Below are positions 7,972 through 28,317 of a stretch of DNA of 64,000 nucleotides, piece after piece; position 1 is the first letter of the stretch, and each line of letters begins with the position of its first letter. The position numbers and the translations under genes were made by a program. The stretch covers positions 62,001 to 126,000 of the forward strand of contig JAJFUB010000013.1 of assembly GCA_021372615.1 (NCBI GenBank). The letters are read 5' to 3'. The notes beneath the pieces are model-generated. The model was not told the origin of the DNA, made no database searches, and worked only from the letters and a program-made list of their open reading frames with translations. Source of the stretch: a bacterium. GTDB lineage: Bacteria > Armatimonadota > Zipacnadia > Zipacnadales > UBA11051.

Positions 7972-8106
7972 ACGCGACGCCCGCGCGTGTTCCTAACGGG
8001 TGACGGGTATCGGGGCGAGGATGAGGCGGCCTGCGGGCGGCTCCGTCGCTGCCGAGCCCGGCCCTCACGTCGGGCCGCCGGAGACACCCCTGCCACACAC
8101 GCGGAC

Positions 8107-8135
8107 TTGCCTCCGACCGCTTCTGCGGGTAGACT
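8107..8135 (+). promoter_or_regulatory. Promoter ahead of the exported protein gene
   Basis: TTGCCT (8107-8112), 17-base spacer, TAGACT (8130-8135), about 55 bases ahead of the chosen ATG. A moderate match, lying behind the end of the DUF4127 operon. Confidence 0.5.
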
Positions 8136-8190
8136 ACCATCGCGTGTGGCGCAGACTTGGGCGAGGTCTCGACCGCAAGGAGGTGCGAAG

Positions 8191-9258: not shown

Positions 9259-9299
9259 CCGCGCAGCGCCGCATTGCACGAAGCAGCAGGAGTATCCGC

Positions 9300-9806
9300 A
9301 TGACGAACCCGGCCCATTTCTCCGGGCGTGAAGTCTTTGACCTGGCGGTGCAGACCGAGACCAACGGTCGCGTCTTCTATGCGGCGGCGGCCCAGGCCGC
9401 CCGCGACGCCGCGGTGCGGCACATCATGGAGCGTCTTGCCAACGCCGAGGCCGAACACGAGGCAACCTTCCGCCGCCTGCGCGACGAGGCGTACCCGCCG
9501 GGACCAGTCGCCGCGGCGCCGCCGCTGCCCGAGACGTACGCCGATGAGTTCGGCGAGTACATGGCGGCGCTGCTGCGCGCGCGTGTGCTGCCCGACGAAG
9601 CTACCGGCCTGCGCGTCGTCGCCGAGATGACCGACGACACCACTGCGCTCGATTTCGCCCTCGCCTTCGAGAAGGACACCATTCTGTTTATGCAGCAGAT
9701 GCGCGAGGTGATCCCCGAGAACGAGCGGGAGCGCCTCACAGTGCTGATCCAGCAGGAGTACACCCACGTGCGCCTGCTGCAGGAACTCAAGGACGCTCGC
9801 GCGTAG
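9300..9806 (+). CDS. Ferritin-like / rubrerythrin-type protein
   Basis: 168 residues, all helical, with the spacing of a four-helix di-iron bundle. Glu in VQTETNGRVFYAAAA and the E-x-x-H in ANAEAEHEATF fit the first half; EKDTILFMQQM and IQQEYTHVRLLQEL fit the second. Rubrerythrins and related ferritin-like proteins handle peroxide or iron in the cytoplasm. No C-terminal rubredoxin-like Cys4 site is present, so it is a sulerythrin- or erythrin-like short form at most. GCAGGAG precedes the ATG. Nine bases separate it from rsmD, suggesting an operon. Confidence 0.75.
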   Translation: MTNPAHFSGREVFDLAVQTETNGRVFYAAAAQAARDAAVRHIMERLANAEAEHEATFRRLRDEAYPPGPVAAAPPLPETYADEFGEYMAALLRARVLPDEATGLRVVAEMTDDTTALDFALAFEKDTILFMQQMREVIPENERERLTVLIQQEYTHVRLLQELKDARA

Positions 9807-14125: not shown

Positions 14126-15277
14126 CTACCCGTTCCCCCCCTCCGTCGCCTCCCCCCCGTTCGGCGCGCTCGAGTCAATCGAGTCCATCAGTGAGTGCAG
14201 GAGCAGGTCCTGACTGGCTCCGAACTGCAGTAGGCTCATCTCCACGGTCGCCGCGGTAATAGCCGGCGGACCCTCCTCCCTGGCGCGCACGCCGGCCATC
14301 GCCAGGCCCCGACGGCACGCCAGCCGGAGCACCGTTACCAGCGCCCCGGGCGCTACCTGATACACCGTCGGGCTGGGCCTTTCCGTCCGCACCCCCGTGG
14401 CGTGGTCGAAGATGTAGTCGACGGTCGCCTCGGGAATGGTCACACCCAACTCGACCTCCAGCGCCTCGGCCGCCTGCGCGAGCATGGCGTACACCTGGTG
14501 TGGCGATAGCTCTGGCAGGACGATGTGCACAACGTCGCTGACCGTGGCCAGCAGGGCTGCCTCCATGGGCGTGGTGCAGAAGGCCACGCCGCGTAGGCCC
14601 GCCGGCAGGACACGCGCCAACTCCTGGACATGCCCGCGCGGGATCACCGGCACATGGCCACTGCACGTGAGGTCCTGCACGACTTGCGCCAGGCGTTCCT
14701 CGGTCCCCAGGGCACCGCTCTGTGTCTGCGAAGCGCTCAGTTTCAGCCAGTCGAGTTCCATGACCCGCCCGTGGCGCAGCTCCGGCAACACCGTCTCCCC
14801 CGCCAGCATCCGGCGAGCCAACTCGATCGCGACCGCGTGGCAGCCCGTACCGGGGAAGCCCTGGACGGCGACCAGGTGGTCCGCCGCCACGGCATCCGCC
14901 AGAGCTTGCACGACTTCCTCTCGCTCCACACAGGGCGTCGTAGGGAAGCAGGCGACGTGCAGGCCCCAGTCGCGGCAACAGCGCGCTGCGCCCGGACGGA
15001 TGCCCTTCAGCCGGGGCGGGGGTGCCGTCATGTCTGGCCCACCCAGCGCCAACACGCTCTCGACGAGGGCCTCGTCGGGAGTGGCGTAGTGGCCGATGGC
15101 TTTGCCGAGCAGATCGAGGGAGACGACATCCTCACCCTCGCGCGCAATGTCGAAGCCCCGGTGGTGTATGTCCCGGCAGGGCACACCGCGCAAGCGCAGT
15201 CGCGCGGACTCCTCGTCCATCTCAACCGAGACGCTGCCCATGGCGTCGAGCCACTCGATGTTGTGTGCGTTGAACAT
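14126..15277 (-). CDS. Clp-like AAA+ domain protein lacking the Walker lysine (pseudo-ATPase?)
   Basis: 383 residues. Residues 130-330 follow the layout of the first AAA+ module of ClpA/ClpB. A P-loop-like stretch GFPGTGCHAVAIELARRML (140-158) has Cys146 where Lys should be. LGTEERLAQVVQDL matches the Clp block around GEFEERL, but the following strand (GHVPVIPRG) has no DE Walker B. HIVLPELSPHQVYAMLAQ and LEVELGVTIPEATVDYIFDH match the Clp small-domain region. It probably cannot hydrolyse ATP and may be a structural or adaptor partner. GTG and two ATG starts lie close together; I took the ATG placed nine bases behind GGAG. Last gene of the operon, 50 bases behind the second PafA-like gene. 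Confidence 0.6.
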   Translation of the reverse strand: MFNAHNIEWLDAMGSVSVEMDEESARLRLRGVPCRDIHHRGFDIAREGEDVVSLDLLGKAIGHYATPDEALVESVLALGGPDMTAPPPRLKGIRPGAARCCRDWGLHVACFPTTPCVEREEVVQALADAVAADHLVAVQGFPGTGCHAVAIELARRMLAGETVLPELRHGRVMELDWLKLSASQTQSGALGTEERLAQVVQDLTCSGHVPVIPRGHVQELARVLPAGLRGVAFCTTPMEAALLATVSDVVHIVLPELSPHQVYAMLAQAAEALEVELGVTIPEATVDYIFDHATGVRTERPSPTVYQVAPGALVTVLRLACRRGLAMAGVRAREEGPPAITAATVEMSLLQFGASQDLLLHSLMDSIDSSAPNGGEATEGGNG

Positions 15278-15327
15278 GTCACCCATCTCCACATGCTGCC
15301 GAGCCTGCGCTCACCCCCGCCCTTCGG

Positions 15328-16956
15328 CTACGTGGGCTCCCGCTCGGTCAGCACCTGCTCAGCCGACACGCCGACCAGGTCGGCATAGCGCTGCATGAGC
15401 AGCCAGTCATCGCGTGTGACGGTGTCATTGAGCACGTTGCCCAGGTGGTGCATGTGTATCAACTGGCCCTCGTCGGTGCGGAGCTTGATGCCGATGCGGT
15501 CGAAGCCGGCGAAGCAGGGGGCCAGCCGGCCGGCGCTGCGCTCGGAGATCGCCGCATAGGCTTCCATGAGGCGCTGCCGCTTGGCCGAGCGAGTGGGCGG
15601 CACGTAGCTCGGGTCGGCGGTGTCTCCGAAGGGAGCGCGCTGCCAGGCGGCCACATGCGGGTACGCCTCCATCAGGCGCTCGTACAGGCCGTCGGCCATC
15701 GCGAAGTCGTGGTACAGCAGGTTCAGCCCGAACATCTCCCGCTGCAGTTCCATGGCCTCGGTCACGAAGGGCAGACGGGCGGCATCGCCGTCCGAGGTTG
15801 GCGCCGCGCTGGCGGTCTGCGCCACCGTGGACGGCTCGTAGCCATGCTCCTGGCACACCGGGCGGAAGACGAACTCGTGCTTGATGACAGCGTCCAGGCC
15901 CAGCAGCGGGCCGGACACTTCCCCGGGATAGCGCTCCAGCGCGCCGCGCAAGGCCGTCAGCTGCTCCAGGGCCCAGGCGACCCATGCCACCTGTGTCTTC
16001 TCCCCCTCTGTCAGTAGCCGGTCGTACAGCGCCAGTCGCAGGTCTAGCAAGTCCAGGTGCGTCCACTCCCTGCCGCCGATAGCCACGGGCTGGTGAATGG
16101 TCTCGCCGAAGCGCTGGCTGAGGGCCAGGCGAATGGTGAACCACGGATCGGGTGGCGCGATCTCCAGGCCGCGCTCCTTGAGGAGCCGCAGCACCTCGGC
16201 CGTGTGGTGGCAGCCCAAGTGGGCGTCCATGGCCACCGTGGCCGCCGACAGGGCCCGCTGGTAGGCCGACCGTGCCCATCCCGCCTCATAGTGGGTGTAG
16301 TGCAGCGTTTCGATCTCCTTCACCTCAAAGGCCGGTACCTCGCGTCCCGGCTGCAGGAGGCCCTTGAAGGAGATGCAGTCATTGCTGATATCGGTGACGA
16401 TGGCGCGGCTGCGGACCTCCCACTCCGGGCCGAAGTGCACACCGATGCCGCCCCAGACCTGGCAGGTGCCCAGGAAGTACAGCATCACCTGGCGCACGTC
16501 GTCGCGACGCAGGGCGGTGCGCAAGCCCGGCAGGCTCGGATCGTTGAGGCTGACATTCAGGTGCGAGCCGGCGAAGGTCAGGCGGCGGCGTCCGCCGCGC
16601 ACATAGCCGCAGGCCCCCAGCTTGATGCGCTCGCCCAGGCGCTCGCGGAGGATGCGCCGGTTCTGGTCCTGCGCGGCGGCTAGCTGGAAGGGGGAACCGC
16701 ACTCGGGGGTCTGCGTCTCCAGCAGGTCGCTCTCGCGGGACACGTCGTAGTAGAAGGCGCCCCCGCCACGCAACATGCAGTAACGCGGGAAGCGCCAACG
16801 GATCTCGTCGGTGGGCATGGTGTCGGTGTGGGGCATGGCACAGCGGCGAATGATCTCCGCGCGCTGTTCGGCGAGCAGGTGGCTGTTGCCACCGGTCGTG
16901 AGGTAGTGCTCGCAGTCATTGCCCATGGCCACTCGCGCCAGCGTCTCGGTGCTCAT
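15328..16956 (-). CDS. PafA/Dop-like protein 2 (Pup ligase/depupylase fold)
   Basis: 542 residues, close to the 450-500 of Pup ligase PafA and depupylase Dop, which share the glutamine-synthetase-like ligase fold. The N-terminal strand MGNDCEHYLTTGGNSH (11-26) aligns with the metal-binding G-x-E-x-E-x-G of PafA/Dop, with Asp14 for the first Glu. GGAFYYDVSRESDLLETQTPEC (from residue 65) matches the block around the catalytic Asp (here Asp71) and the TPEC. A region with FAGSHLNVSLND fits the later N/H block. ATG overlaps the stop of its paralogue (ATGA) and is preceded by GGGAG. Whether it ligates, cleaves or is regulatory cannot be decided; the altered first metal ligand could mean a changed activity. 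Confidence 0.65.
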   Translation of the reverse strand: MSTETLARVAMGNDCEHYLTTGGNSHLLAEQRAEIIRRCAMPHTDTMPTDEIRWRFPRYCMLRGGGAFYYDVSRESDLLETQTPECGSPFQLAAAQDQNRRILRERLGERIKLGACGYVRGGRRRLTFAGSHLNVSLNDPSLPGLRTALRRDDVRQVMLYFLGTCQVWGGIGVHFGPEWEVRSRAIVTDISNDCISFKGLLQPGREVPAFEVKEIETLHYTHYEAGWARSAYQRALSAATVAMDAHLGCHHTAEVLRLLKERGLEIAPPDPWFTIRLALSQRFGETIHQPVAIGGREWTHLDLLDLRLALYDRLLTEGEKTQVAWVAWALEQLTALRGALERYPGEVSGPLLGLDAVIKHEFVFRPVCQEHGYEPSTVAQTASAAPTSDGDAARLPFVTEAMELQREMFGLNLLYHDFAMADGLYERLMEAYPHVAAWQRAPFGDTADPSYVPPTRSAKRQRLMEAYAAISERSAGRLAPCFAGFDRIGIKLRTDEGQLIHMHHLGNVLNDTVTRDDWLLMQRYADLVGVSAEQVLTEREPT

Positions 16957-18596
16957 GACAGGCTCCCTTCTTCATACGGTCCCATCAGCATGGGGTACAT
17001 GCCGTGCCCGGCGCCGCCCCCGGACGGGCTGGACGGTGCCGGCGCTGACACCACCTTGCCCCCGCTGCGGACGTGGTGCTGCGTCCGGTAGCGGTGGGTG
17101 TAGCTCAACTCGGTGCGGTAGGGGGCGGCCGGGCCGTCGAGGATCTCGTCCAGGCTCAGCCCCTCCAGGCCCCCGATCCGCGCTAGTGAGCAATCCTCAG
17201 GCGTCGGCAGCGACAGGCGGGCGCTGCGACGCGGCAGGTTCAGACCATCCCAGTCGCACATCTGCAGCCGCTCGCCCTCAGTGATGCAGCGCTGAGCAAT
17301 ATGGCCCCGCAGGTACGCCCGAGTGACCGTCGGCGGCGTGGTGAACGCCTCGGCGAGCTGGAGGGGCGCGAACGGCGGGGCGTGTCCCAGGACGCGGGCG
17401 ATGTGCTGACCCTCCGGCTCAAAGAGCGCCGGCTCGATCTGGTGCCACAGCACGTCCAGCTCGCGGGCGGTGCGGTTGTCGGCGGCCTCGAACGTCATCC
17501 TCTTCGCAGCCCACTCGACGCCGCTGGCGAAGAGGTCGCGGCGCCGCAGCGCGTCTATGACCTGCCGGAGCCAGCGGTCGTAGCGCCGCCAATGCGGCAG
17601 AGCCTCCGCCGCGTGTTCATCGTCCTCCAGGACCGCCGCGATGGTCGCCAGCCCCTGCTCGGCGAGGTCCAGCGCGTTGGCGGAACGGCCGTCGTTGAGT
17701 GGCACGGGCAGCCACGGATCGCGGTTCATCACGGCTGCCGCCAGCAGCGGCTGGCGCAGCGACAGATCCGGATACGGCCGCACGGGAGCGGGGCGCAGCA
17801 GGGCGTAGGTGGCGGCCTGCACCAGCGCGATGCGCAGTTCCTGCGTTGGGCTGACAGTCGTGTCGTGCGGGCCGATGCAGTGGTTGCGTGTGCGGCTGGC
17901 GTCGTCGTTCAGTGTTTCGCGGTTGCCGCGCAGGTTCAGGCTGATCGTGCGCTGGAAGGTCGTCTCGTGCGACGGGAAGAGCGTCTCCATGCTCTCCAGC
18001 CGCTGTCCGCACAGGAAGGCGGTCTCGTCGTAGTCGTCCCCCACCGCTCCGCTGCCCAGCAGTACTGCCGCCGCGGTCACGAACGGCACATAGGCGCGGA
18101 GGACCGTGGAGAAGCACTCGCCCACAAGCAGCCGCCAGTCGTCGCGCCCCACCTGCACATTGATATGTCCGGCTCGGTAGACATAGCCCGTGCCGCGTGA
18201 CTTGCGCGAACGGTTCATGAGCCAGACCAGGGCCTCCTGGGGACATTCGGCGGCGGCCTGGGCCAGCATGTACTCGGTGGCGCACAGATGCAGATAGGCC
18301 TCGTGCGGGTCCAGCGTCTCGCACGAGGTGACCTCGGGCTGGTCCAGGTCAATGTAGACGGCGCCGCCGTCGGGCAGGGGCAGCAGGTCAGCCGACGCTC
18401 CCCAGTAGCCCCCCGGCGTGCTCAGCCCGTAGCTGGTCCGTACCGGCTCATCACCGAATACACGCTCGTTGAGGGCCTGTAGTACGTGACGCGCCCCCTG
18501 GGCCTGCGGGTCTGGCCAGCGCTGTGTCGTCTTGGTGACAGCCAGATGCTCCCATTCGTTGCCGAGGATCGGCAGGACACAGGTCTCGTTGCTCAT
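16953..18596 (-). CDS. PafA/Dop-like protein 1 (Pup ligase/depupylase fold)
   Basis: 547 residues. The first strand LPILGNEWEHLAV (8-20) keeps the E-x-E metal pair (Glu14, Glu16) of PafA/Dop. GGAVYIDLDQPEVTSCET (78-95) matches the segment with the catalytic Asp (Asp83). RGTGYVYRAGHINVQV (135-150) fits the SYG-x-HENY block. VPFVTAAAVLLGSGAVGDDY (170-189) matches the PFLVTRQ..TGSGRVG block, and SRTRNHCIGPHDTTVSPTQE resembles the late R-x-H-x-x-x-x-D region. In known systems these enzymes join, or remove, the C-terminal Glu of Pup to lysines. The paralogue downstream shares the G-N-x-x-E-H start. I chose the ATG behind GGGGAG, not the GTG three codons earlier. Starts 18 bases after the AAA ATPase gene. 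Confidence 0.7.
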   Translation of the reverse strand: MSNETCVLPILGNEWEHLAVTKTTQRWPDPQAQGARHVLQALNERVFGDEPVRTSYGLSTPGGYWGASADLLPLPDGGAVYIDLDQPEVTSCETLDPHEAYLHLCATEYMLAQAAAECPQEALVWLMNRSRKSRGTGYVYRAGHINVQVGRDDWRLLVGECFSTVLRAYVPFVTAAAVLLGSGAVGDDYDETAFLCGQRLESMETLFPSHETTFQRTISLNLRGNRETLNDDASRTRNHCIGPHDTTVSPTQELRIALVQAATYALLRPAPVRPYPDLSLRQPLLAAAVMNRDPWLPVPLNDGRSANALDLAEQGLATIAAVLEDDEHAAEALPHWRRYDRWLRQVIDALRRRDLFASGVEWAAKRMTFEAADNRTARELDVLWHQIEPALFEPEGQHIARVLGHAPPFAPLQLAEAFTTPPTVTRAYLRGHIAQRCITEGERLQMCDWDGLNLPRRSARLSLPTPEDCSLARIGGLEGLSLDEILDGPAAPYRTELSYTHRYRTQHHVRSGGKVVSAPAPSSPSGGGAGHGMYPMLMGPYEEGSLS

Positions 18597-18614
18597 GTTG
18601 CACACTCCCCGGGT

Positions 18615-20318
18615 CTAGCTCGCATTACGGAAGCGCATCCGGACCTCGCGGGCAGAGGTCGTGTCCAGCAGTGCCTCGCGGTCCACGTGCAGACCGGTCA
18701 CGCGCTGGGCTTCCTCGCCCGACAGCCCCAGCGCCACGACCAGGTCCTCGGGTGCCAGGAACGCCACATTCGCGTAGAGCTGGCGCTTCAGTTCGCCGGC
18801 GAGGCTGAAGGCGCTCAGGCAGGTGTCGTCGTAGTACGCAGCCCGTGCCGCTGCCTGTACGCTCTGTTCCAGCGTGCGTCCGCTGACCGCCTCGGAGGCC
18901 TGGTAGACCCGCCCATGGTCGCTGCTATCGAACACCAGGCGGATGAGCGGGAAGTCCAGGCCGCACAAGGCCATCTGAGCCGTCGTCTCCGGCTCGTCGT
19001 CAAGCTGCACCCGCGACAGGTACGCAGTCAGGATGCGCACGGCCGTCTCGCGCTCCGGCAACCCCACCGCCACCGTCTCGGAGATGCGGCTCAGCAATGC
19101 GGCATCCAGCCGCGACTGGTAGTTGCTGGTGAAGGCCAGGATGCGGATCGGCTCGCCGGGCTCGCGCGGACGGCCCAGCATGTCGGCGATCACCGCGAAA
19201 ATGCGCGAGGTGACATCGGCGCTGGTGGAGTCCATGTGGGCCCCGCGCTTGCGCATGATCGCGTCCACCTCGTTCATCACGATCAGCGTGTTCTGGTCGC
19301 CGCCGGCGGCCAGCGCCTCGCGCATCAGCTTCTCACTGCGGCCGAACCACTCAGAGGTGATGTTGGACGTGTCTATGCGGATGGTCTGGTAACCCAGGGC
19401 CGCCACCTCACGCGCCAGATGGCGTTCCGCGATGGTCGTCTTGCCCGTGCCGCTCGGGCCGGCGAACAGGATGGTCTGCGGCAGGCCTATCCCGTAGCTG
19501 GCGGCTCGCTCGGGGTCGCGCATCACCTTGATGATCTGGCCGATGCGCTGCAGCACTGAGGGCGAGTAGATGAAGTTGTCCTCCTCCGCCGGGAGCGGCG
19601 TGAACACGTTGTAGAGCGGGTTGCGCCGCGTCTCGGCAGCCTCGTCGGCCTGGGGCGCAGGATACGCGATGCGGATCTTGCCGTCCGTCACGCGCACCCG
19701 GTCCCCGGGCGTCAGCTCCGCCAGGTGCGGCTCCAACTCCGCCGAGGCGATGGCCACCACGCTGTCTTCGGCCAGCACGCCGTCGCGCAGCTCCAACTCG
19801 ACATGGATCCGCCCCTCGCCCGCAGGCTGGACGGCCTTCAGTCGCGCTGAGACCAGCCCCACATGGTCGTAGCCGTACGAGCCGAAGTAGGCGGCATCGC
19901 CCTCAGCGCCCAGTGCGAACTGCACGGTCTCGCCCAACGACGGCGCGCGGGCATCCTGCGGCAGGATGATGAAGTCGGCATCGTCAATCCAGATGGCCAC
20001 CAGCGGCTCGCCGTGGATGATCTCCTGCATGATCCGGGTGACGCGCCCGATACGGCGGGCCGACGAGGCCTTCACACGATCGAGTTGCTCGCGCACGGCC
20101 TCGTACTCAGCTCGGGCGTCGGCTACCTGTTGGGTGTAGCTGTCAAAGGCCTCGCAGATGCGGTCTACCGCGTCTGGCGGGACTTCGGCCGCCAGCAGCG
20201 AGCCCCGGAGATGGTCGCCAATGCCCACCGGGTCCAGGGGGAAATCCCGCTGCGAGGCCGCCGCCAGGTGCTGGTTGATGATGCTGGCGATATCGGCTAT
20301 GAGGGTCCGTCGTGTCAT
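18615..20318 (-). CDS. Proteasomal-type (Mpa/ARC-like) AAA ATPase
   Basis: 567 residues laid out as in Mpa/ARC: an N-terminal helical region with coiled-coil-like segment about 60-87, a beta-rich double OB-like region about 105-220, one AAA module 275-425 and a helical end. Walker A is GPSGTGKT (287-294), Walker B LIVMNEVD (345-352) with Asn349 replacing the usual Asp, and sensor-1 region FTSNYQSRLDAALLSR. In Mpa this ring unfolds pupylated proteins into the 20S proteasome. Here the C-terminus (MRFRNAS) lacks the GQYL-like docking tail, and no prcA/prcB lies in the window. ATG overlaps the RING stop (ATGA). It may unfold or extract tagged proteins without a 20S core. Confidence 0.85.
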   Translation of the reverse strand: MTRRTLIADIASIINQHLAAASQRDFPLDPVGIGDHLRGSLLAAEVPPDAVDRICEAFDSYTQQVADARAEYEAVREQLDRVKASSARRIGRVTRIMQEIIHGEPLVAIWIDDADFIILPQDARAPSLGETVQFALGAEGDAAYFGSYGYDHVGLVSARLKAVQPAGEGRIHVELELRDGVLAEDSVVAIASAELEPHLAELTPGDRVRVTDGKIRIAYPAPQADEAAETRRNPLYNVFTPLPAEEDNFIYSPSVLQRIGQIIKVMRDPERAASYGIGLPQTILFAGPSGTGKTTIAERHLAREVAALGYQTIRIDTSNITSEWFGRSEKLMREALAAGGDQNTLIVMNEVDAIMRKRGAHMDSTSADVTSRIFAVIADMLGRPREPGEPIRILAFTSNYQSRLDAALLSRISETVAVGLPERETAVRILTAYLSRVQLDDEPETTAQMALCGLDFPLIRLVFDSSDHGRVYQASEAVSGRTLEQSVQAAARAAYYDDTCLSAFSLAGELKRQLYANVAFLAPEDLVVALGLSGEEAQRVTGLHVDREALLDTTSAREVRMRFRNAS

Positions 20319-20881
20319 GATTCGCTCCACCCTTCTTGCCCCTTGAGCATGAAGCTCTCGCGTTGCCGGTCGGTGCGGCAGATGGCGCAGGAGCAGACAG
20401 GACATGCGGTCGGCTCCTCACCTTGCAGACATTGCGGATGGAAGGCCCAGGAGCAGGCCGGGCAGTAGACCACCTCGTCACCGGCGTGCAGTGGTTGCCC
20501 GTCGTCCATACAGGCCGCGCACAGCACGGGCCCGCTCGCGACGTCGTCCGGCGCCCAGAGCGGCTCAGTCCGCTCGGGGTCGAGGAAGTCCTGGGTCACG
20601 TAGCGCCAGACCTGCGCGCCACACTCGATCGTGTCGCCGTTGACGACGCGGCAAGTGCCCGCCAGCAGGGGCAGACCGCGCACACGTGCGAGGCCCGGTG
20701 GGGTTAGCAGTACATGGCCCCCGTCGTGCCCCACCAGCACCGGGACATCCACCGACTCGCCTGGCTGCAGGCGCCGGAGCAATCCGGCCGGCTCGTCGCC
20801 ACTTAGCACGACCGCGGCGTGGCAGGGCAGGCCGATGGACTCGACGGCCTCGTTGTCCTCCAGGCGCATCAACCGAGGCAT
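20315..20881 (-). CDS. Prokaryotic RING-type zinc finger protein (candidate E3)
   Basis: 188 residues. The C-terminal part has eight zinc ligands in C4HC3 order: C121-x2-C124, C140-PA-C143, H148, C151, C160-PV-C163 (VYCPACSWAFHPQC at 138-151), the cross-brace layout of RING/PHD-like fingers and of the Prok-RING families described next to bacterial E1/E2 genes. Two more Cys follow at 165 and 168. Residues 1-110 are beta-rich (LAGTCRVVNGDTIECGAQVW resembles an FHA-like sandwich edge) and may bind substrate. Overlaps the JAB gene by 13 bases and the AAA gene by 4. Probable E3-like bridge between E2 and target; this role is inferred from context. Confidence 0.8.
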   Translation of the reverse strand: MPRLMRLEDNEAVESIGLPCHAAVVLSGDEPAGLLRRLQPGESVDVPVLVGHDGGHVLLTPPGLARVRGLPLLAGTCRVVNGDTIECGAQVWRYVTQDFLDPERTEPLWAPDDVASGPVLCAACMDDGQPLHAGDEVVYCPACSWAFHPQCLQGEEPTACPVCSCAICRTDRQRESFMLKGQEGWSES

Positions 20882-21819
20882 GATTCGACCTCCTGGTCGT
20901 CTGTGACGGGCTCTGTCTCCGGGCCGGCCTCGATGTGTAGGTTCACCTGCTGCAGGGAGCCATTGATCCAGCGGAAGCCGGCAGCCGTCGGCTGTTGGCC
21001 GACACTGGCGGCGATGATGAACAGGCCCTCGGCGCCCGCCGACCACAGACACAGGTCCCAGTCCATCGGGGAGGGGGCGATCAGGCCGTAGGGGTGTGTG
21101 TGGCAGGGCCCCAGGATACGGAAGGGCGGGCCCATGGCCGCCACGCTGTCTTGGGCATAGGCCCAGTCCTCGGGGCTGAACTGGACGGTCGCGGCCCCGG
21201 CGCCCTCAGCCGCGCCAGGCGGAACGATGACATCGGTCACGACCGGCACGCCGCCCGGCCCCAGGACCCCGACCGAGAACGCGCGCTGCTCGGCCTCGTC
21301 GGTCATCGCCACCAGTTGGCTGATGACCGCGCCGGCCTGCGCCGTGAGCATGGCCTCCCTGGCCTTGACCGAGTAGTCGCAGTCCGGCAGCACGTAGTCG
21401 AACACCGGCACCTCGGGCACGGCCTGCTGGTCCACATACAGGGCAGCGGTGGCACGGTCGCCGGGCAAGAAGATGTTGTGATGGCTGGAGAGAGCCTCGA
21501 CCAGGGCCTTGGTCTCCATCAGCAGAACGGCCGACATGGGGAGGTCGCGTGCGGTCGCCACGGTGCCATCGCTCGCTCGCACCTCGATCCGGCAGGTGAC
21601 GAGACGGAGGCGCCCTGACGCCGTAGTCTGTCCCTGGCAGGCGACGCGCAGTTGCAGGGGTGTGCCACCGGCGAGGCTGCTGCCCAGTTCCTCGAGGGCC
21701 ACCCCCTGCGCGGCCAGCTCCAGGCGTCGCCACAGGACCTCCGGCGCCATCAGGAAGGTCGTGGCGACATCGGGATTCGTCTGGTTGTGGATCGTCACAT
21801 GAAGGCCGTTGCCTGCCAT
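20869..21819 (-). CDS. JAB/MPN (JAMM) metallopeptidase, deubiquitinase-like
   Basis: 316 residues. Residues about 150-290 form a JAB domain with a complete zinc motif: CHTHPYGLIAPSPMDWD gives His240, His242, Ser250 and Asp253 (H-x-H-P-x6-S-x2-D), with Glu177 as likely catalytic Glu. In related systems such enzymes trim Ubl precursors or remove Ubl from targets. The N-terminal 140 residues are a separate beta-rich domain that I do not recognise. GAGGAG lies ahead of the ATG; 68 bases separate it from the Ubl gene. All catalytic residues appear intact, so an active peptidase is expected. Confidence 0.88.
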   Translation of the reverse strand: MAGNGLHVTIHNQTNPDVATTFLMAPEVLWRRLELAAQGVALEELGSSLAGGTPLQLRVACQGQTTASGRLRLVTCRIEVRASDGTVATARDLPMSAVLLMETKALVEALSSHHNIFLPGDRATAALYVDQQAVPEVPVFDYVLPDCDYSVKAREAMLTAQAGAVISQLVAMTDEAEQRAFSVGVLGPGGVPVVTDVIVPPGAAEGAGAATVQFSPEDWAYAQDSVAAMGPPFRILGPCHTHPYGLIAPSPMDWDLCLWSAGAEGLFIIAASVGQQPTAAGFRWINGSLQQVNLHIEAGPETEPVTDDQEVESCLG

Positions 21820-21887
21820 GGGATCATCTCCTCGTCGGCCGATGGACGGGGAGGAGTCGAACCTCCCCGTCCGCTTGGGGCCGGCGC

Positions 21888-22160
21888 CTACGCGGCGGTC
21901 AGGCGCGGGATCACCGTGACCTGACCGGCGGTCAGCAGGTCGCGCACGCGCTCATCCTGCAGGCTCTCGCTCGGGCGCAGGAGCTCGCCCGACTCGGCCC
22001 GCAACTGGTAGTCCAGGGGCATATTGCGCTGACTGCGCGACGGCAGTTGCAGCCGCCACACCGCCTCCGCCGCGACATCGGCGATGGTCGCGGCCGCACC
22101 CAGCTCTACGCTGGCTCGGCGTTGACCCGTCAGGTCTCGGCACTCAACCGTGTTGCTCAC
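21888..22160 (-). CDS. Ubiquitin-like (YukD-type beta-grasp) protein
   Basis: 90 residues with a beta-grasp pattern: strand VECRDLTGQRRASVEL, helix ATIADVAAEAVWRLQL, then LDYQLRAESGELLRPSESLQ and a last strand TVIPRL. The YQL...G..L....SL order is that of YukD/ubiquitin-like proteins. The C-terminus is PRLTAA: there is no diglycine, and no long tail for the JAB enzyme to remove. GTG start behind AAGGAGG; its first codons overlap the end of the 202-residue protein gene. Likely the protein activated by the E1 of this operon, but the C-terminal Ala makes the chemistry uncertain. Confidence 0.65.
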   Translation of the reverse strand: MSNTVECRDLTGQRRASVELGAAATIADVAAEAVWRLQLPSRSQRNMPLDYQLRAESGELLRPSESLQDERVRDLLTAGQVTVIPRLTAA

Positions 22161-22752
22161 GATGGTTCCCTCCTTCCTGTTGCTGAGGTGCTCGCCACCA
22201 GCGACCCCAGTTGGCAGCCAGCCCGGGGTGGTTGCGCAGCACCTCGAGAATGGGGCGCAGTTCCACCGCGATGTACCGCAGAGCTGCGTCCACCAGCTCC
22301 ACGTCCTCGTCGGTGGGCTGCAACAGCGGAATGAAGATGCTCGCCTTGGTGCAGGCCTGATTGACGGCGATAAGGTGTGTCTGCGTGTTGGCGGCCGTGA
22401 CCCAGAGATGCCGCACCGTGCCTCCTATCTCGGGCGGGGTCAGCGGGATCCAGCACTCCAGACAGTCCTCGTGCACAATGACCTGGGCCTTCACGCTGCC
22501 GCCGCACAGCCGCCGCAGCGGTTCGGCCAGCCTGTCGCGCCACGCCGCGCCGATGGCCTCGCGCTCCACGGCGCTGAGTTCCGGCCCCTTCCCGCCGGCG
22601 AGCCACCGCGCCGCGCACTTGTCCTCGCGCCAGCTGAGCGGGCCATCCACCGCGTGTCCCGTGTGCGTACGCTTGGACCACCGGCGCTCTTGGGGCAGCG
22701 TGTGCCGTGTGAACTCACCTCGGGTTGTGGCTTGTGCCTGAAGCTGCGACAT
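22144..22752 (-). CDS. Unknown protein encoded between E2-like and Ubl genes
   Basis: 202 residues, no family recognised. Start behind AAGGAG, 16 bases after the E2-like gene; its end overlaps the Ubl start, so it is translated as part of the set. The N-terminal 40 residues are basic and polar. From 60 on it alternates helices (LSAVEREAIGAAWRDRLAEP) with strands (AQVIVHEDCLECWIPLTPPE, VRHLWVTAANTQTHLIAVNQ) and ends in a Gln/His-rich tail. Three Cys occur in the middle. No membrane segment. The fixed place between E2 and Ubl suggests a conjugation cofactor or substrate adaptor; this is inference only. Confidence 0.6.
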   Translation of the reverse strand: MSQLQAQATTRGEFTRHTLPQERRWSKRTHTGHAVDGPLSWREDKCAARWLAGGKGPELSAVEREAIGAAWRDRLAEPLRRLCGGSVKAQVIVHEDCLECWIPLTPPEIGGTVRHLWVTAANTQTHLIAVNQACTKASIFIPLLQPTDEDVELVDAALRYIAVELRPILEVLRNHPGLAANWGRWWRAPQQQEGGNHREQHG

Positions 22753-22768
22753 CTAGGTCTCCTTCAGA

Positions 22769-23245
22769 TCACCGCAGGGCGTGCGCATCGAAGGGCAACT
22801 CGCCCCGGGCCTGGGCCGCCGTGTACCAGCGGGCGGCGTGGGCGTTGTAGATCCCCTCGGACATGGCCCACGACGCCCCGGCGATAATATCGAACACCAG
22901 GGAGACCACGGACCACAGCGGGATGACCGGCCCGCGCTCAAGCTGTTGCTCGAGGTTCGCGCAGATGATGCGCGGCGGGTCGGGTCGGATGTTGGGGTGG
23001 AAGGGCCGCTCACCGTCCTGCGGCTCATAGACGGCCATGAGACCATGCAGCTTCTCGGCCCCCACGAACCGGACGACATGGCGGGGCACGATCTCAATGC
23101 TGCCTTCGGGCCGTTCCACCGCGCCCAGGCAGTCGAAGGCAACCAGCAGGTGCATCGGCCCTCGCTCGATGATCTCGGCGCGCGTGCGCGGATCGTTGAT
23201 GAAGTCCACCGTCTCGGCTATCTCGCGTTCGGTGCGGTCAGTCAT
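22769..23245 (-). CDS. E2-like (UBC-fold) conjugating protein
   Basis: 158 residues, the size of a minimal E2. FHPNIRPDPPRIICANLEQ (82-100) reproduces the E2 core: HPNI at 83-86 and a Cys ten residues after the Asn (Cys95), the place of the catalytic Cys in HPN-x-x-x-G-x-x-C-L. PLWSVVSLVFDIIAG (109-123) matches the W-P..-i..vl..i..ll helix behind the active site. The preceding sheet (EIVPRHVVRFVGAEKLHGLM) fits the UBC meander. It would carry the Ubl as a thioester on Cys95. The ATG overlaps the E1 gene by 8 bases; an earlier in-frame start would overlap more and lacks family support. Confidence 0.75.
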   Translation of the reverse strand: MTDRTEREIAETVDFINDPRTRAEIIERGPMHLLVAFDCLGAVERPEGSIEIVPRHVVRFVGAEKLHGLMAVYEPQDGERPFHPNIRPDPPRIICANLEQQLERGPVIPLWSVVSLVFDIIAGASWAMSEGIYNAHAARWYTAAQARGELPFDAHALR

Positions 23246-24326
23246 CCTGCACCAGCCCCTCGACTGCAATGGTCACGGCTGTCTGTGGTTGACTGGGTGT
23301 ACGCCCCCGGCCGCGCAGCAGCAGCAGATCGCGCGCGGGTAGTCCTAGTGAGGCAGCGCTGGCGTCTGGCCGTAGCTGGTCCAGGGCCAACTCGCTCGTC
23401 CAGCCTTCCAGGGCCACCACGGGTGACTGGCAGTGCGGGCACGGGTTGCGGAAGACGCGCGGATTGGGGCGCCTGCCGCAGGCGCACTCGCTGCCCAGCG
23501 CCAGGGGTCTGAGGAACTCCAGGCGGGCCGTACCCTCGGTGATCCCCACGTCCCGCGCCACGGCCGACAGCACGGGCAGGATCGGCTCGGCCGCACCCAA
23601 CGTCACCGTCGCCTCGGGCCAGGGGGTCACCCGGGCGCAGTCGAGGAGACAGTGCGGGTCGCGGGTGAGGCGGCTGGCAAAGGCCTCACAGGCCGGGCCG
23701 AGGGCCAGGGTCGTGTCCACGCCCGCCGGGGCCCCGATGGCGCTGAGCGTCAGGGCCGCCGCGGCTTGGCCCTCGGCCGCCCCGTAGGGCATCGTGAAGG
23801 CGTCGCCGCCCTCGGCCACGGCCTGCTCGCAGGAAAAGCCGTCTTCGTTGAGGATGGATGAGATGAAAGCCTCCCCGCTGCCGCACAGAGGACAGGGCCC
23901 AGCGGCCAGGGGGAAGAGGAAGGAGCGCACTTGGGCGGCCCCCTCGCTGACATGACAGGTGAGGAGAGGCAGGGGGTGGTTCGGTGTGGCCAGACGCAGG
24001 CAGATCCCGGTCACGCGGCGCGTGGTCGCGGGGCGGTCCGTGGCGAGCACGATCAGCTCCGCTTCGCGCCACTCCTGTCCGCCGACGACGTCCTCGATCC
24101 GGCCGCAGCGCGCCGACAACTGATCTGGGCGACCGAGGGCCGCGGCCTGCTGCTGCAGCGCCAGCACCTTTGGCTTGCCCACATCGGCCGGGCCGTAGAC
24201 CCGCTCCGTGGTGCGTGCCGTGACAGGCTTGGGGTCGGCGGCGATCAGCTTCCACCCCTGGCGCAAAAGGGCCAGCACGATGGTCGTGCCTGGTAGTCCG
24301 AGGCCGGCGCTGATCGCCTTGTGCAT
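23238..24326 (-). CDS. E1/ThiF-like Ubl-activating enzyme
   Basis: 362 residues. The N-terminal Rossmann fold has G-L-G-L-P-G (8-13), Asp31 in LIAADPKPV, the ATP-contacting Arg42 in ARTTERVYG and Lys53 in DVGKPKV, then VLATDRPATTRR: the ordered signature of MoeB/ThiF/E1 enzymes. GPCPLCGSG may hold the thioester Cys or a zinc ligand. Residues near 300 carry C-A-C ... C-P-H-C, a zinc-ribbon-like element, followed by a small C-terminal domain that could present E2, like a UFD. It would adenylate a Ubl C-terminus with ATP. GGAGGAG precedes the ATG, 53 bases behind the Pup-like gene. Family secure, pairing with the local Ubl inferred. Confidence 0.85.
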   Translation of the reverse strand: MHKAISAGLGLPGTTIVLALLRQGWKLIAADPKPVTARTTERVYGPADVGKPKVLALQQQAAALGRPDQLSARCGRIEDVVGGQEWREAELIVLATDRPATTRRVTGICLRLATPNHPLPLLTCHVSEGAAQVRSFLFPLAAGPCPLCGSGEAFISSILNEDGFSCEQAVAEGGDAFTMPYGAAEGQAAAALTLSAIGAPAGVDTTLALGPACEAFASRLTRDPHCLLDCARVTPWPEATVTLGAAEPILPVLSAVARDVGITEGTARLEFLRPLALGSECACGRRPNPRVFRNPCPHCQSPVVALEGWTSELALDQLRPDASAASLGLPARDLLLLRGRGRTPSQPQTAVTIAVEGLVQDD

Positions 24327-24379
24327 CCGAAACTCCTCCTGTGTGTCGGAACAGCTTCGTATGTCGTTGGGGGTCGTTA

Positions 24380-24550
24380 CTACTCGCCTTCGTGGTTGGA
24401 TTGGGCCAGATCGTGGCGCTCGTGGGCCGTGTTGCGGAACTGGTCTACGATCGCCAACGGCTGGAGCCGGGGCATGGATACGAAGCGTTGCTCCCGGTTG
24501 TCGCCGTCGTCCCCCCTAGAGGGGCCTTCGTGTTCGCGGAAACGCTCCAT
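24380..24550 (-). CDS. Small Pup/UBact-like protein ending in Gly-Glu
   Basis: 56 residues, first gene of the operon. Strongly charged and probably disordered N-terminal half (MERFREHEGPSRGDDGDNRE), then a possible amphipathic helix (PLAIVDQFRNTAHERHDLAQ) and the C-terminus NHEGE. Size, polarity, helix position and the terminal Gly-Glu are those of Pup (GGE/GGQ end) and of the Gram-negative UBact proteins, the substrates of PafA-type ligases. Two PafA/Dop-like proteins are encoded downstream in the same operon. AAGGAGG sits at ideal distance from the ATG; an in-frame start 11 codons earlier has no such site. No diagnostic catalytic motif exists for this family, so the call rests on these features plus context. 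Confidence 0.55.
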   Translation of the reverse strand: MERFREHEGPSRGDDGDNREQRFVSMPRLQPLAIVDQFRNTAHERHDLAQSNHEGE

Positions 24551-24660: not shown

Positions 24661-24865
24661 CACCCTTGTTGGGCACTGTCTCCATTCCGGACAGGTAGGC
24701 TGTACCGCCCGCGTCGTGGACCAATTGTGCGGCAAGACGCGCTACAGTCAGCAATCATCTGAATGCTGCAACGTGCACAGGAGAGGCAGCAAGGGTCGAG
24801 GACCGGGCAGGCGGCGTCTTCGTGTGCCGGGAAGCTCCCCGGCGCCAATCCGTGGGAGGTGTACG

Positions 24866-26200
24866 ATGGCGACGGACATCTTCGCACAGAGGGAACTCCG
24901 CGAACGCATCACGCACTGCTATCAGGAGCTGTACGGGGACTACTGGGGTGGACTGTGGCGCAACTTCTACGCCCGCAGCGGGGGCGTCTGTCTGGTAGGC
25001 ACTTACGGGGACGTCCGCCTGCGCGACGCCTTCGCCGTGCGGGAGATCATCCAGGTTCTACCCCTACGTGAGATGGCAGTGCTGGTGATGGACGACGCCG
25101 AGGCGCGTTTCCCGGGGGATGTCGTCATCATCGCTCGCCCCGACCTCTTCGCCAGCCGCCATGCCAAGCGCGTGCTGGCCGACGCCCACCAGGTCCGCCA
25201 CTTTTTCCATCTGGGGCGCTACGCCTTCATCAACGTCACCGACGGGAAGTGCTACTGGCGGGCCCGCCAGGGGCCAATGATGCGCGAGTACGGGTTAGTG
25301 GCACGGCGCGTCCGTTCCAACGGCCACCACGTCATCACCGTCTCCGGCCTCAGTCGCATCGGCACATGGGCGGCAGCCAAGAGCTGCAGCGACATGCACT
25401 ACCTCGATGCAGTAGAGAGCCTACTGCAACCGCGGCTGCAGCAAGTGGCTGCCGAGAGCGGCAAGGACCCGGCCAACATCGGCTTTGAGGTGCTGGTGGA
25501 GGTCACGTACGAAGTCGAGAAGCAGGAGAAAGCCTACCTGGCGCAGTTTGACCTGGATGCCACCCTCTATCCGCTGATCACCTGCGAAGGACCGCCCCCC
25601 GCTTACTACGAAGGATCCAGTGGCGATGTCGTACGCGAAGAGGATCTGATGATCCGCCCCGTTGCCGTCGCCACGGAGTTGCAGACGCCGCGCGCCGAGC
25701 ATGTGGTCATCGCCCTGGTCAAGGGCGACTGCCCCGCGAACGCCACGACCGACCCGAACCTCATCACACACTTCGTAGTGGATGGCATAGACCTGGTGGA
25801 GAAGGGGACGAACCGGTTCAACATGCTGCTGCAGGCCTGGTATCGGGGACCACGGAGCGAGAAGGAGTTCGAGAGCGGGGAGATCAAGCCGAGCCTGCAC
25901 TACCCCGCCAAAGACGCCCGCACCATCCGCTGCCAGTTCAACCGCGAGGCCAACCGCTTTGGTGTGCCGGGGGAGCTGGCCCGCTGGTCCGGCCACCAGT
26001 ACTACATCAACACGATCTCACAGCACTGGCTGCCGGCCTGGGAGCACGTAGACATGCCTGGGCTGACCAACCCGCCTCCGGGGCTGTCGCCAGTGGCGCA
26101 GACGCCGGCCGGTGCTCCGACAACTCCCCGCAAGCGGCGTCCCAACACGCCCCGCGACGAGGTCACCTGCCCGCCGACAGGCACCGATCCACTCGGTTAG
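24866..26200 (+). CDS. Unknown protein divergent from the Ub/Pup-like operon
   Basis: 444 residues, family not recognised. GGGAGG precedes the ATG; upstream in-frame starts lack a ribosome site. Residues 1-150 alternate strands and helices (GGVCLVGTYGDVRLRDAF, EMAVLVMDDAEARFPGDVVI), and HHVITVSGLSRIGTWAAAKS (about 151-170) resembles a sensor-like Rossmann edge. The middle has YEVEKQEKAYLAQFDLDATL. The last 70 residues are Pro-rich and disordered, ending TGTDPLG. No signal peptide or membrane segment. The overlapping divergent promoters suggest it is co-regulated with the Ub/Pup operon, as a regulator, substrate or effector; which one cannot be told. Confidence 0.7.
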   Translation: MATDIFAQRELRERITHCYQELYGDYWGGLWRNFYARSGGVCLVGTYGDVRLRDAFAVREIIQVLPLREMAVLVMDDAEARFPGDVVIIARPDLFASRHAKRVLADAHQVRHFFHLGRYAFINVTDGKCYWRARQGPMMREYGLVARRVRSNGHHVITVSGLSRIGTWAAAKSCSDMHYLDAVESLLQPRLQQVAAESGKDPANIGFEVLVEVTYEVEKQEKAYLAQFDLDATLYPLITCEGPPPAYYEGSSGDVVREEDLMIRPVAVATELQTPRAEHVVIALVKGDCPANATTDPNLITHFVVDGIDLVEKGTNRFNMLLQAWYRGPRSEKEFESGEIKPSLHYPAKDARTIRCQFNREANRFGVPGELARWSGHQYYINTISQHWLPAWEHVDMPGLTNPPPGLSPVAQTPAGAPTTPRKRRPNTPRDEVTCPPTGTDPLG

Positions 26201-26229: not shown

Positions 26230-27030
26230 TCAGGACGTCTCGTCCGCCCCGAGCATGTCAAGCAGCTCGAGGTCCGGCTGGAGGTCCTCGCAGAAGCGGT
26301 TGGCTAGCGCCTCCGCTACTTCCTCATCCTGCCGGGTGTAGATGGTGACGTTCTCGTGCCGCTGATCGCCCGGGTCGAAGGGGGCCGTGTAGGGTTCCTC
26401 GTTCAGCCACTCACCGTCTCCGGGCGGTAGGCACAACACCTTCCCGTCCGGCCCCAGCTTGTTCTCTAGACTGAGCATTAACACCGGTCGCGGACCCCGC
26501 GAGGACGGGATGAAGGCCGGCACGTGCAGCAGGCTCTCGCACCGTCCGCTACGGAAGAACGGCGCCTCACGGGTGCGGCGATAGCGCTTGGCCTTGTGCT
26601 GGGTGATGTGGTAGCCCCCCAGGTTGATGAGCTTGCCCGACCGCAGCGGCTCGGTGGTGAGCGAGGTGTCCACCAGTGGAGCTGTGCACGTGGCGGTCGT
26701 GAGTTGCCGACGGCGCCGTGTCTCCAGGTCCTGGAAGCGGGCAGCGGCCGGTAGCAGCAGGCATTCCGCATCCTCCACCAGCCAGATGGCCGCCAACTCG
26801 CTGGGAATGGCGTCGAAGGCCTCCTCGCACAGCCTACCCAGCACGTCCTCGAGCACGCGGGGGAGGAAGAAGTGGCGCAGGCCGTTCGTCTCCAGCAGCG
26901 AGAACTGGCGCGGCGGGTCGGCCGCCTCCCAGTTGGCGATGGTGCGCGCCGACAGGCCCAAATCCACGGCGATCTCCGCCTGCGACAGCCTGGTGCGCTT
27001 GCGCAGTTGGGTGAACTGGTCCGAGTTCAT
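26230..27030 (-). CDS. Cro/C1-type HTH regulator with sensor-like C-terminal domain
   Basis: 266 residues. The N-terminus FTQLRKRTRLSQAEIAVDLG plus LSARTIANWEAADPPRQ (residues 6-42) is a Cro/C1 helix-turn-helix. Residues 60-240 are a mixed alpha/beta domain (AIWLVEDAECLLLPAAAR, LINLGGYHITQHKAKRYRR, RPVLMLSLENKL) resembling a GAF-type sensor; ligand unknown. GGAGG lies ahead of the ATG chosen, six codons inside the longer frame. It is the last gene of the radical SAM operon (18 bases from the next gene) and converges with the 444-residue gene, so it probably regulates this region. Confidence 0.8.
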   Translation of the reverse strand: MNSDQFTQLRKRTRLSQAEIAVDLGLSARTIANWEAADPPRQFSLLETNGLRHFFLPRVLEDVLGRLCEEAFDAIPSELAAIWLVEDAECLLLPAAARFQDLETRRRRQLTTATCTAPLVDTSLTTEPLRSGKLINLGGYHITQHKAKRYRRTREAPFFRSGRCESLLHVPAFIPSSRGPRPVLMLSLENKLGPDGKVLCLPPGDGEWLNEEPYTAPFDPGDQRHENVTIYTRQDEEVAEALANRFCEDLQPDLELLDMLGADETS

Positions 27031-27048
27031 CAGCGTCACCTCCAGCAT

Positions 27049-28317
27049 TCAGCAGCCTTGCAGCGGGCACAGCGGGTCAGGGCCGGCGAAGTCCCCCCTG
27101 GCCAGATAGGCATGCACGGGACATGACCCAAAGCAGCCGTAGCCGTACCGCGTGCATCGGGTGCAGGCCGGGTTCTTGCTCAAGCGTAGGTCCCGGAACA
27201 CGCGCCAGACCTCCGCCTGCAGCCATAGGCCATGGATCTGGCAGGCCGACATGTGTCGGACATTGCCCGCGGCGAACGGGGCGCGCGCCGCCGGGTCAGG
27301 CGACCCGCCCGGCGAGCAGCCACACGCGTGCATCCAGCCGGCCGGGGAGATGAACGCCGCCTCGCGGCCCGCCGGGCACCAGCGCACCTTGTGGATTACG
27401 GGATCGCTGGCCTGCCCGGCCACGGCTCCGACGTCCGCGCCATACTGGAATTCGACCTGCAGGTCGGCCTGTCCTTGCCGCTGGCCCAGCAGATGCGACA
27501 CGGCGGCCATTTCGGTCGCGCCGGGGCGGTCCGCGGCGAACTGCCCGGAAGCGCCGCGCCCTGTCGGGCGGGGAGCGATCAGCGACAGATGCCGCACACC
27601 GCGAGCCTCCAGCCAGCGCATGAAGTCAGACAGGACCGGTAGCAGGGACCGCGTGATGACGGTGTTCACGCGCAGGCTGCGTCCGGAGGCCAGCAGCCAG
27701 TCCACCGTCGCCATCGTCCGTGCGAACGCCCCGGGCCCACGCAGAGCGTCATTGATGTCCTCGGGCCCATCCAGCGACACGAGGTACCGCCCGATCGAGC
27801 GGGCGAGCAATTCCTCGGCGAGCCCCTCGCGCCATACGCCGTTCGTGCCCAGAGACACGTACAGGCGGCACGCGAGGGCCTCGTCAATGAGTTCGGGCAG
27901 ATCCGGCCGCGCGGTCGGCTCCCCGCCGGTGAAGCGGATCTCGCGGACACCGATGGCCGCCAGACGGTGGATCAGGGCGCGCAGCTCACCGGTCCCGAGT
28001 TCCGGCTCCGGCGCAATCGTGTCGCGATAGCACATCACACATGACAGATTGCAGCGCCCTGTCACTTCCAGATAGATGCGGTTGGGGCTGCTCAGGCAGC
28101 CCTCAGGCAACTCCTCGGCCCACGAGCGCGTGGCGAAGTAGAGCAACGTGTCATCGTTCGCGGCGGCACGTCGCAGGGACTGGAGTTCCTCCTCGCCCAA
28201 CTCCGTGACGACGCCGGTGTGCGGATCGAGGGCCTGTCCGCCGACGCGCTCCTCGCGAATGCGTCGCGCGATGGGGACCGCAGGTAGACCCTCCTCGGGA
28301 ATGGTATGGAGGATCAT
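27049..28317 (-). CDS. Radical SAM protein with C-terminal Cys-rich (SPASM-like) region
   Basis: 422 residues. YLEVTGRCNLSCVMCYR carries the C-x3-C-x2-C cluster site for the 4Fe-4S/SAM unit; EIRFTGGEPTARPD is the GGE motif. The C-terminal part holds many Cys (HACGCSPGG, ACTRCTRYGYGCFGSCPVH, CPLQGC), as in SPASM/twitch domains that bind extra clusters. Such enzymes often modify peptides or proteins. ATG overlaps the previous gene stop (ATGA) and follows GGAGG. Substrate unknown; no precursor peptide is seen nearby. Confidence 0.88.
   Translation of the reverse strand: MILHTIPEEGLPAVPIARRIREERVGGQALDPHTGVVTELGEEELQSLRRAAANDDTLLYFATRSWAEELPEGCLSSPNRIYLEVTGRCNLSCVMCYRDTIAPEPELGTGELRALIHRLAAIGVREIRFTGGEPTARPDLPELIDEALACRLYVSLGTNGVWREGLAEELLARSIGRYLVSLDGPEDINDALRGPGAFARTMATVDWLLASGRSLRVNTVITRSLLPVLSDFMRWLEARGVRHLSLIAPRPTGRGASGQFAADRPGATEMAAVSHLLGQRQGQADLQVEFQYGADVGAVAGQASDPVIHKVRWCPAGREAAFISPAGWMHACGCSPGGSPDPAARAPFAAGNVRHMSACQIHGLWLQAEVWRVFRDLRLSKNPACTRCTRYGYGCFGSCPVHAYLARGDFAGPDPLCPLQGC

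Follow-up and report, generated by a model that had tools for sequence, protein, structure and literature searches.

Ubiquitination and pupylation rely on enzymes that are not related to each other, and the two are regarded as independent inventions. Stand-alone prokaryotic operons that join E1, E2, RING and JAB genes to a YukD-like ubiquitin-like protein (Ubl) were reportedly surveyed by Burroughs, Iyer and Aravind in 2011. In Corynebacterium glutamicum, Pup, PafA, Dop and ARC are found without a 20S proteasome, and tagging leads to unfolding or disassembly and not to degradation. Elsewhere, in Actinobacteria, Nitrospirae and some Armatimonadota, Pup or UBact works with PafA/Dop, the ARC(Mpa) ATPase and the 20S proteasome. 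The accessible part of an earlier analysis (Iyer et al. 2008, PMC2588565) predicts PafA to be a ligase of the glutamine synthetase fold and mentions no E1/E2 partner, and that of Iyer et al. 2006 (PMC1779556) describes bacterial E1/E2/JAB/Ubl operons without Pup. The Bil and Bub operons likewise unite genes for E1, E2, JAB and a Ubl (PMC11354881; cited in PMC13373217), and a 2020 study (PMC7947786) reports a sporadic occurrence of Dop/PafA, in Armatimonadetes only. Here, we describe an operon that combines ubiquitin-type and Pup-type genes, located at positions 14126-24550 of a 64,000-nucleotide stretch of DNA (the window) that is part of a 187,613-base contig in the 6.4-Mb genome (G000) of a member of the phylum Armatimonadota.

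The operon consists of 11 open reading frames (ORFs) on the minus strand, separated by short gaps or overlapping with their neighbours. In the order of transcription, these encode a Pup-like peptide, E1, E2, a protein of unassigned function (g8), Ubl, JAB, a RING protein, an AAA ATPase, a Dop-like protein, a divergent protein in the position of PafA (PafB) and a pseudo-Clp. The GC content at third codon positions (GC3) lies between 0.81 and 0.90 for all 11 genes, including 0.82 for the first ORF of 56 amino acids, and ribosome-binding sites precede most of the ORFs. The operon is real: the same genes are syntenic in six other genomes, which excludes a chance combination and led us to reject misassembly as its source. 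A sequence-only reading of the window had described 11 same-strand genes with both tagging logics, and the ORFs, GC3, family matches and motifs bear this out. It took the genes for a single unit in which two paralogues of the PafA type stand beside an ATPase resembling Mpa and a Clp-like pseudo-ATPase, and profile comparisons and synteny support this. The two halves, whose lack of co-occurrence elsewhere would by its own account have refuted the idea, are found together in the six further genomes, four of which belong to a strongly diverged lineage.

Like the Pup-20S system, the operon has a PafA/Dop pair and an ARC-type ATPase, together with a candidate Pup, a short peptide with a terminal Glu or Gln; in a second, diverged lineage (below) the order ARC-Dop-Pup-PafA is also the same. 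It differs in having no 20S genes, no GQYL-type ATPase C-terminus and an adjoining set of E1, E2, RING, JAB and Ubl genes, and the Pup C-terminus of the combined operons is unlike that of the UBact of this phylum (..KRYRQRSG[EQ]). The stand-alone E1-E2-RING-JAB operons share the same five component families, and the PEITAG ending of their Ubl is still recognizable in the second lineage as P.[VI].AG. Those scanned here differ in being without ATPase, PafA and Dop, and the Ubl of the window lineage ends in AA. Pupylation in C. glutamicum is alike in having a Pup module without a 20S proteasome but involves no ubiquitin-type machinery. Bil and Bub operons are distinguished from the window operon by its single YukD-like Ubl, RING protein and Pup module. 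Specifically, Bil consists of BilA (an ISG15-like Ubl), BilB (E2), BilC (JAB) and BilD (E1) with no RING, so that an operon with a RING protein and a single 90-amino acid YukD-like Ubl is not a member. In the searchable literature, outside the 2011 RING survey and the recent Bub papers, no description of the ubiquitin-type and Pup-type combination was found, and none of the papers searched contains "pupylation" together with "YukD".

Ubiquitin-type and Pup-type genes of the window

The E1-like (ThiF/MoeB) adenylating enzyme (23238-24326, minus strand, as are all genes of the operon) matches Pfam ThiF at 9.4e-7 and carries Rossmann and cysteine motifs (GLGLPG, GKPK, ATD and CPLC), with a candidate catalytic Cys within SCEQ. 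It also aligns with the E1 of the second lineage, which matches ThiF at 2.1e-27. The E2-like (UBC) protein (22769-23245) has no Pfam match, and is recognized by HPN at residues 83-85 and a candidate catalytic Cys95. In an alignment of 22 members of this family HPN is present in all 22, no fewer than 90% have the active-site Cys, and one stand-alone member matches UQ_con at 2.4e-7. The Ubl (21888-22160) is a YukD-like beta-grasp protein of 90 amino acids (Pfam YukD 1.2e-4, below the curated cut-off) that contains no lysine and ends in PRLTAA, without the C-terminal glycine. Downstream is a JAB/JAMM metalloprotease with an N-terminal extension (20869-21819) that is weak by hidden Markov model (HMM), aligns with its orthologue, and has an intact JAMM motif, HTHPYGLIAPSPMD, at residue 240 (HTHP...SPMD). 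The RING-type zinc-finger protein (20315-20881), a putative E3, shows the binuclear C4HC3 pattern CxxC..CxxC..HxxC..CxxC and matches Prok-RING_1 with an E-value of 0.0019, below the cut-off; the first CxxC pair is lost in one of the closest relatives.

Turning to the Pup-type half, the first gene (24380-24550) encodes a 56-amino acid peptide that is preceded by the ribosome-binding site GGAAGGAGGG, ends in HEGE, contains no lysine and has no Pfam match; we assign it as Pup-like with moderate confidence. Aligned without gaps, its last 24 residues fit three second-lineage Pups better than do the ends of all 955 other window ORFs, and 1-6% of composition-keeping shuffles reach the same score (p 0.01-0.06). 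Given its position in the operon and this C-terminal similarity, the peptide likely has a Pup-like role. The ARC/Mpa-like ATPase (18615-20318, within an ORF of 18615-20405 whose start is probably the Met at 20318) is composed of a coil, an OB-like region and an AAA domain (Pfam AAA 2.2e-19), with Walker A present and the pore loop WFG kept. Taken by itself it scores weakly against TIGR03689 (4e-6); its assignment to the ARC/Mpa ATPases, which have a coil and tandem OB domains, follows from alignment along its whole length with the second-lineage ATPases.

Two members of the PafA/Dop family follow. The first (16953-18605) matches Pfam Pup_ligase at 6.4e-30, contains the motifs GNEWEH, YIDLDQPE and GHIN, and is nearer in NCBIfam to Dop (TIGR03688, 8.6e-20) than to PafA (5e-14); its best PDB matches are depupylase chains (6e-24). 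The second, PafB (15328-16956; GNDCEH, YYDV, ETQTPE, SHLN and YHDF), reaches only 0.015 in Pfam. Nevertheless, a profile of three PafB orthologues aligns with 29 PafA/Dop proteins of Armatimonadota over 354 columns (hhalign probability 94.8, E 5.3e-8), and the profiles of seven other operon families, used as negative controls, all gave E-values of 0.08 or worse. In this alignment FYYDV..ETQTPEC matches the catalytic Asp/Glu region of PafA/Dop, SHLN falls on the metal site, and towards the C-terminus the GLYERL region is aligned as well. The proposal in the sequence-only reading that both large proteins are PafA/Dop-like is supported at the level of the family, by profile comparison; the fold of the divergent one is predicted from sequence, its AlphaFold model being of too low quality to use. 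Gene order and HMM scores mark the first of the two genes as the equivalent of Dop and the second as that of PafA, predicted to be a depupylase and a ligase of the same family.

Conservation in Armatimonadota

Our survey covered 291 Armatimonadota genomes and, outside the phylum, a single pattern scan of GTDB that used Dop of the first lineage. The combined set is present in seven of the 291 genomes, representing seven genera and five families, and these fall into two lineages. The first contains the window and two genomes of the same taxonomic order, G257 and G255, in which the gene order of the window set is kept. In G257 a single contig (C440, locus L032) reads E2-g8-Ubl-JAB-RING-AAA-Dop-PafB, whereas G255 is split over two contigs, one reading from E1 through E2-g8-Ubl-JAB-RING-AAA to the start of Dop (L067) and the other from the end of Dop through PafB to Clp (L033). 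Identities between the window proteins and their counterparts range from about 26% (g8) to more than 50% (Dop and Ubl), and are mostly 35-50%. PafB is present in 3 of the 41 genomes of the window's order, and the genome-collection scan matched only the two relatives already known.

The second lineage was found via Dop-family matches in G044 and G046, where RING-E1-E2-X-Ubl-JAB-ARC-Dop-Pup-PafA are arranged in one operon, X being a protein of 285-291 amino acids. A search of the phylum with nothing but the E2 of G044 and G046 returned two more strong matches, in G221 and G214, with the remaining genes in the same order as far as the contigs reach; the G221 locus starts inside E1 and is cut off inside Dop. 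Family assignments are firmer in this lineage, with the ATPase matching TIGR03689 pup_AAA at up to 1.4e-81 in addition to Prot_ATP_ID_OB domains, Dop its family model at 1e-82, PafA at about 1e-64, and JAB the Pfam JAB model at 7.8e-6. The Pup-like peptides of G044, G046 and G214 sit between Dop and PafA and end in SGE, GGQ and GGQ, respectively, that of G214 reading MEQRER...SEGFNRNVRQDGGQ. In G214 the stretch from Pup to PafA also contains an array made up of a short repeat of the GTGAACG type and of its inverse (L093, about 7905-8010). In one-to-one hhalign comparisons between the two lineages, which carry no correction for database size, E-values were 2.5e-19 over 515 columns for AAA, 4.4e-19 for Dop, 4.3e-13 for RING, 3.7e-9 for Ubl, 5.7e-6 for JAB, 1.1e-5 for PafB against PafA, 1.7e-5 for E2 and, weakly, 0.014 for E1. 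Judged from these profiles, the two lineages are homologous gene by gene.

Both halves also exist on their own in the phylum. E2-like matches were found in 46 of the 291 genomes, with stand-alone ubiquitin-type operons commoner than combined ones, and in the 17 other loci examined, several of them partial, the ubiquitin-type genes are accompanied by no ATPase, PafA or Dop. The genome of the window itself has a second, stand-alone ubiquitin-type operon on another contig (L095, G000:C11:39000-50297, at 4538-9452 of that locus), made up of E2, a Ubl ending in PEITAG, E1 and two JAB-like proteins, with neither ATPase nor PafA. Elsewhere in the phylum, UBact peptides ending in KRYRQRSG[EQ] are encoded alongside PafA/Dop pairs. 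In trees of E1 and of Ubl the members from combined operons lie on one side of a branch and the stand-alone members on the other, with support of 86/93 and 87/90 that is suggestive only. In a single tree of all PafA/Dop proteins, the Dops and PafAs of the second lineage are grouped, and long branches prevent the placement of the window pair.

Accessory and neighbouring genes

The gene between E2 and Ubl differs between the lineages. In all three first-lineage operons it encodes g8 (22144-22752 in the window), a protein without a Pfam match whose counterparts in G257 and G255 are 26-27% identical. Its AlphaFold2 model has a mean predicted local distance difference test score (pLDDT) of 59.6, about 75 in the core, with the element order a-bb-a-bb-a, and a Foldseek search with this low-confidence model returned no significant fold match, only unspecific matches to aminotransferases. 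The same slot in the second lineage holds X (L034, 3072-3929), also without a Pfam match and with no detectable similarity to g8. A relationship between the two was considered and is unsupported (hhalign E 0.44), and no search supported a type III chaperone-like fold for either. The protein in this slot is possibly a lineage-specific adaptor or E2 partner. At the other end of the operon, the pseudo-Clp (14126-15292) is a ClpB-D1-like pseudo-ATPase with a weak ClpB/ClpG match (0.002), whose Walker A sequence, GFPGTGCH, has lost the Lys and whose Walker B is degenerate. Its orthologue in G255 (35% identity) is likewise without the Walker Lys.

Several genes adjoin the operon upstream. A divergently transcribed protein of 494 amino acids without a Pfam match (24716-26200, plus strand) is followed by a helix-turn-helix protein (26230-27048, minus strand), and both are possible regulators. 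Beyond these are two neighbouring radical SAM/SPASM proteins (27049-29525, minus strand), possibly a peptide-modification cluster.

Tag chemistry and possible function

No combined operon encodes a 20S proteasome, and none was seen in G000, G255, G257, G214 or G221, where only HslV-type matches were detected, several of these genomes being incomplete. The PF00227 matches of G255 and G257 are taken as HslV because they adjoin HslU, an adjacency seen directly only in these two; the neighbours of the G000 match are not telling, but its size and score are as in G255 and G257. In G044 and G046 a second proteasome-family match lies next to another PafA gene, indicating a separate 20S. The ATPase C-termini of both lineages show no GQYL-type proteasome-docking motif, and six of the seven ATPases, including all of the first lineage and most of the second, retain the pore loop W-[FYLV]-G. 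With the pore loop retained, the docking motif missing and no 20S seen, substrate threading without a proteasome is likely.

The Ubl tails bear on how the Ubl could be activated and to what it could be attached. Stand-alone Ubls end in ..PEITAG and those of the second lineage in ..P.[VI].AG, with glycine present in both, whereas the window lineage has PRLTAA (window and G255) or PRLTAARSGT (G257), which suggests that the Ala-Gly end drifted to Ala-Ala in this lineage. Comparison of YukD-like Ubls at L068, L069, L070, L097, L100, L034, L045 and L032 revealed short tails of variable length after the conserved Ala-Gly, which suggests that the precursors are trimmed to ..AG, most simply by JAB. 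In the window lineage lysine is absent from the Ubl in three of three genomes and from Pup in the one available; the stand-alone Ubl of the window genome has eight, and second-lineage Ubls of G044 and G046 have two to three each. Since the operon proteins are lysine-poor overall (1.1-1.9%), this absence is not significant by itself, but it does mean that lysine-linked chains of these tags cannot form in the window lineage. An earlier idea, that the Ubl is edited by the PafA/Dop-like enzymes, is unlikely in this lineage, as a Ubl ending in PRLTAA without lysine also lacks the terminal Glu or Gln on which PafA and Dop act. For the same reasons we think it more likely that both tags are placed on third proteins than that one is placed on the other.

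A complete ubiquitin-type cascade of Ubl, E1, E2, RING and JAB is thus encoded together with a Pup module, and the combination is conserved. Our working reading, which we hold to be somewhat better than an even bet, is that the operon constitutes a single dual-tag protein-modification pathway, and from the gene content we infer that the Ubl and Pup tags may be coupled on one substrate. In such a pathway E1 would adenylate the Ubl C-terminus and load the Ubl onto the Cys of E2; the RING protein would steer it onto lysines of target proteins. The enzyme in the PafA position would ligate the Pup-like peptide, via its C-terminal Glu, to target lysines. The coiled coil of the ATPase would then recognize Pup, and the ATPase would pull the tagged protein through its pore, with its Trp-x-Gly loop, for unfolding or extraction, after which JAB and the Dop-like enzyme would strip the two tags for reuse; the pseudo-Clp would probably be an adaptor or regulator. 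Remodelling or extraction by an unfoldase or segregase appears more likely than proteasomal degradation, as no 20S was seen in five of the seven genomes and the docking C-terminus is missing. More tentatively, and with rather more doubt than conviction, we suggest a two-key logic in which the Pup-reading AAA machine extracts or unfolds a substrate only once both tags are on it or have been checked for. To our knowledge, such logic is not known in any organism.

Several features weigh against the dual-tag pathway. The Pup of the window is supported mainly by its position, its ending and a weak C-terminal similarity, and the contigs of G257 and G255 end before the Pup position, so that any Pup gene there is hidden. 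The Walker B of the window ATPase is NE (MNEVD), where the two closest relatives have DE. PafB is very divergent, and because its AlphaFold model, built from three orthologues, was unusable (mean pLDDT 39.9), its fold is predicted from sequence. The window Ubl ends in Ala-Ala and not Gly, and its activation by E1 is therefore not assured. Finally, the JAB of G255 (L067, 2592-3533) reads HTQ(P) in place of HTH(P) and may be impaired, its Ubl needing no trimming.

Other explanations account for part of these data. The two halves could be independent pathways linked by a common operon and its regulation alone, with Ubl and Pup placed on different targets in the same physiological response. That each occurs alone in the phylum, as YukD-Ubl/E1/E2/JAB/RING operons on the one hand and separate UBact/PafA/Dop clusters on the other (the latter accompanied by a 20S, at least in G044, G046 and G059), speaks for this, but the halves have stayed in one operon through deep divergence, and the E1 and Ubl of combined operons are set apart from the stand-alone ones by one branch, albeit not a strong one, and we consider the explanation unlikely. 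We regard as less probable still a role in anti-phage defence or conflict similar to that of Bil and related E1/E2 operons, in which the ATPase would act as an effector or in recycling. Patchy occurrence would fit, a connection with defence has been made or proposed for bacterial E1/E2/JAB operons of the Bil/Bub kind (PMC13373217), and the AAA domain matches the PADLOC models of IetA (5e-18) and TRIP13 (7e-17), as AAA domains generally may. However, the other parts of the operon have no PADLOC match, no defence neighbours were recognized in the scanned flanks of the window, and no relatives were detected on plasmids scanned with the second-lineage E2 or in viral contigs scanned with the Dop-like protein. 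A hybrid tag, in which Pup is placed on the Ubl or the Ubl on Pup and the ATPase reads a Pup-capped Ubl on the substrate, would explain why both tags are needed, and the Ubls of G044 and G046 do offer lysines for it; the lysine-free Ubl and Pup of the window lineage argue against lysine-linked mixed chains there, and we consider the arrangement very improbable.

If the operon does function as one dual-tag pathway, Pup and an ARC-type ATPase would serve purposes beyond the proteasome. A conserved operon that contains both kinds of machinery makes it testable whether two chemically different tags are written, read and erased in one pathway, and would give a compact bacterial system in which to study cross-talk between tags.

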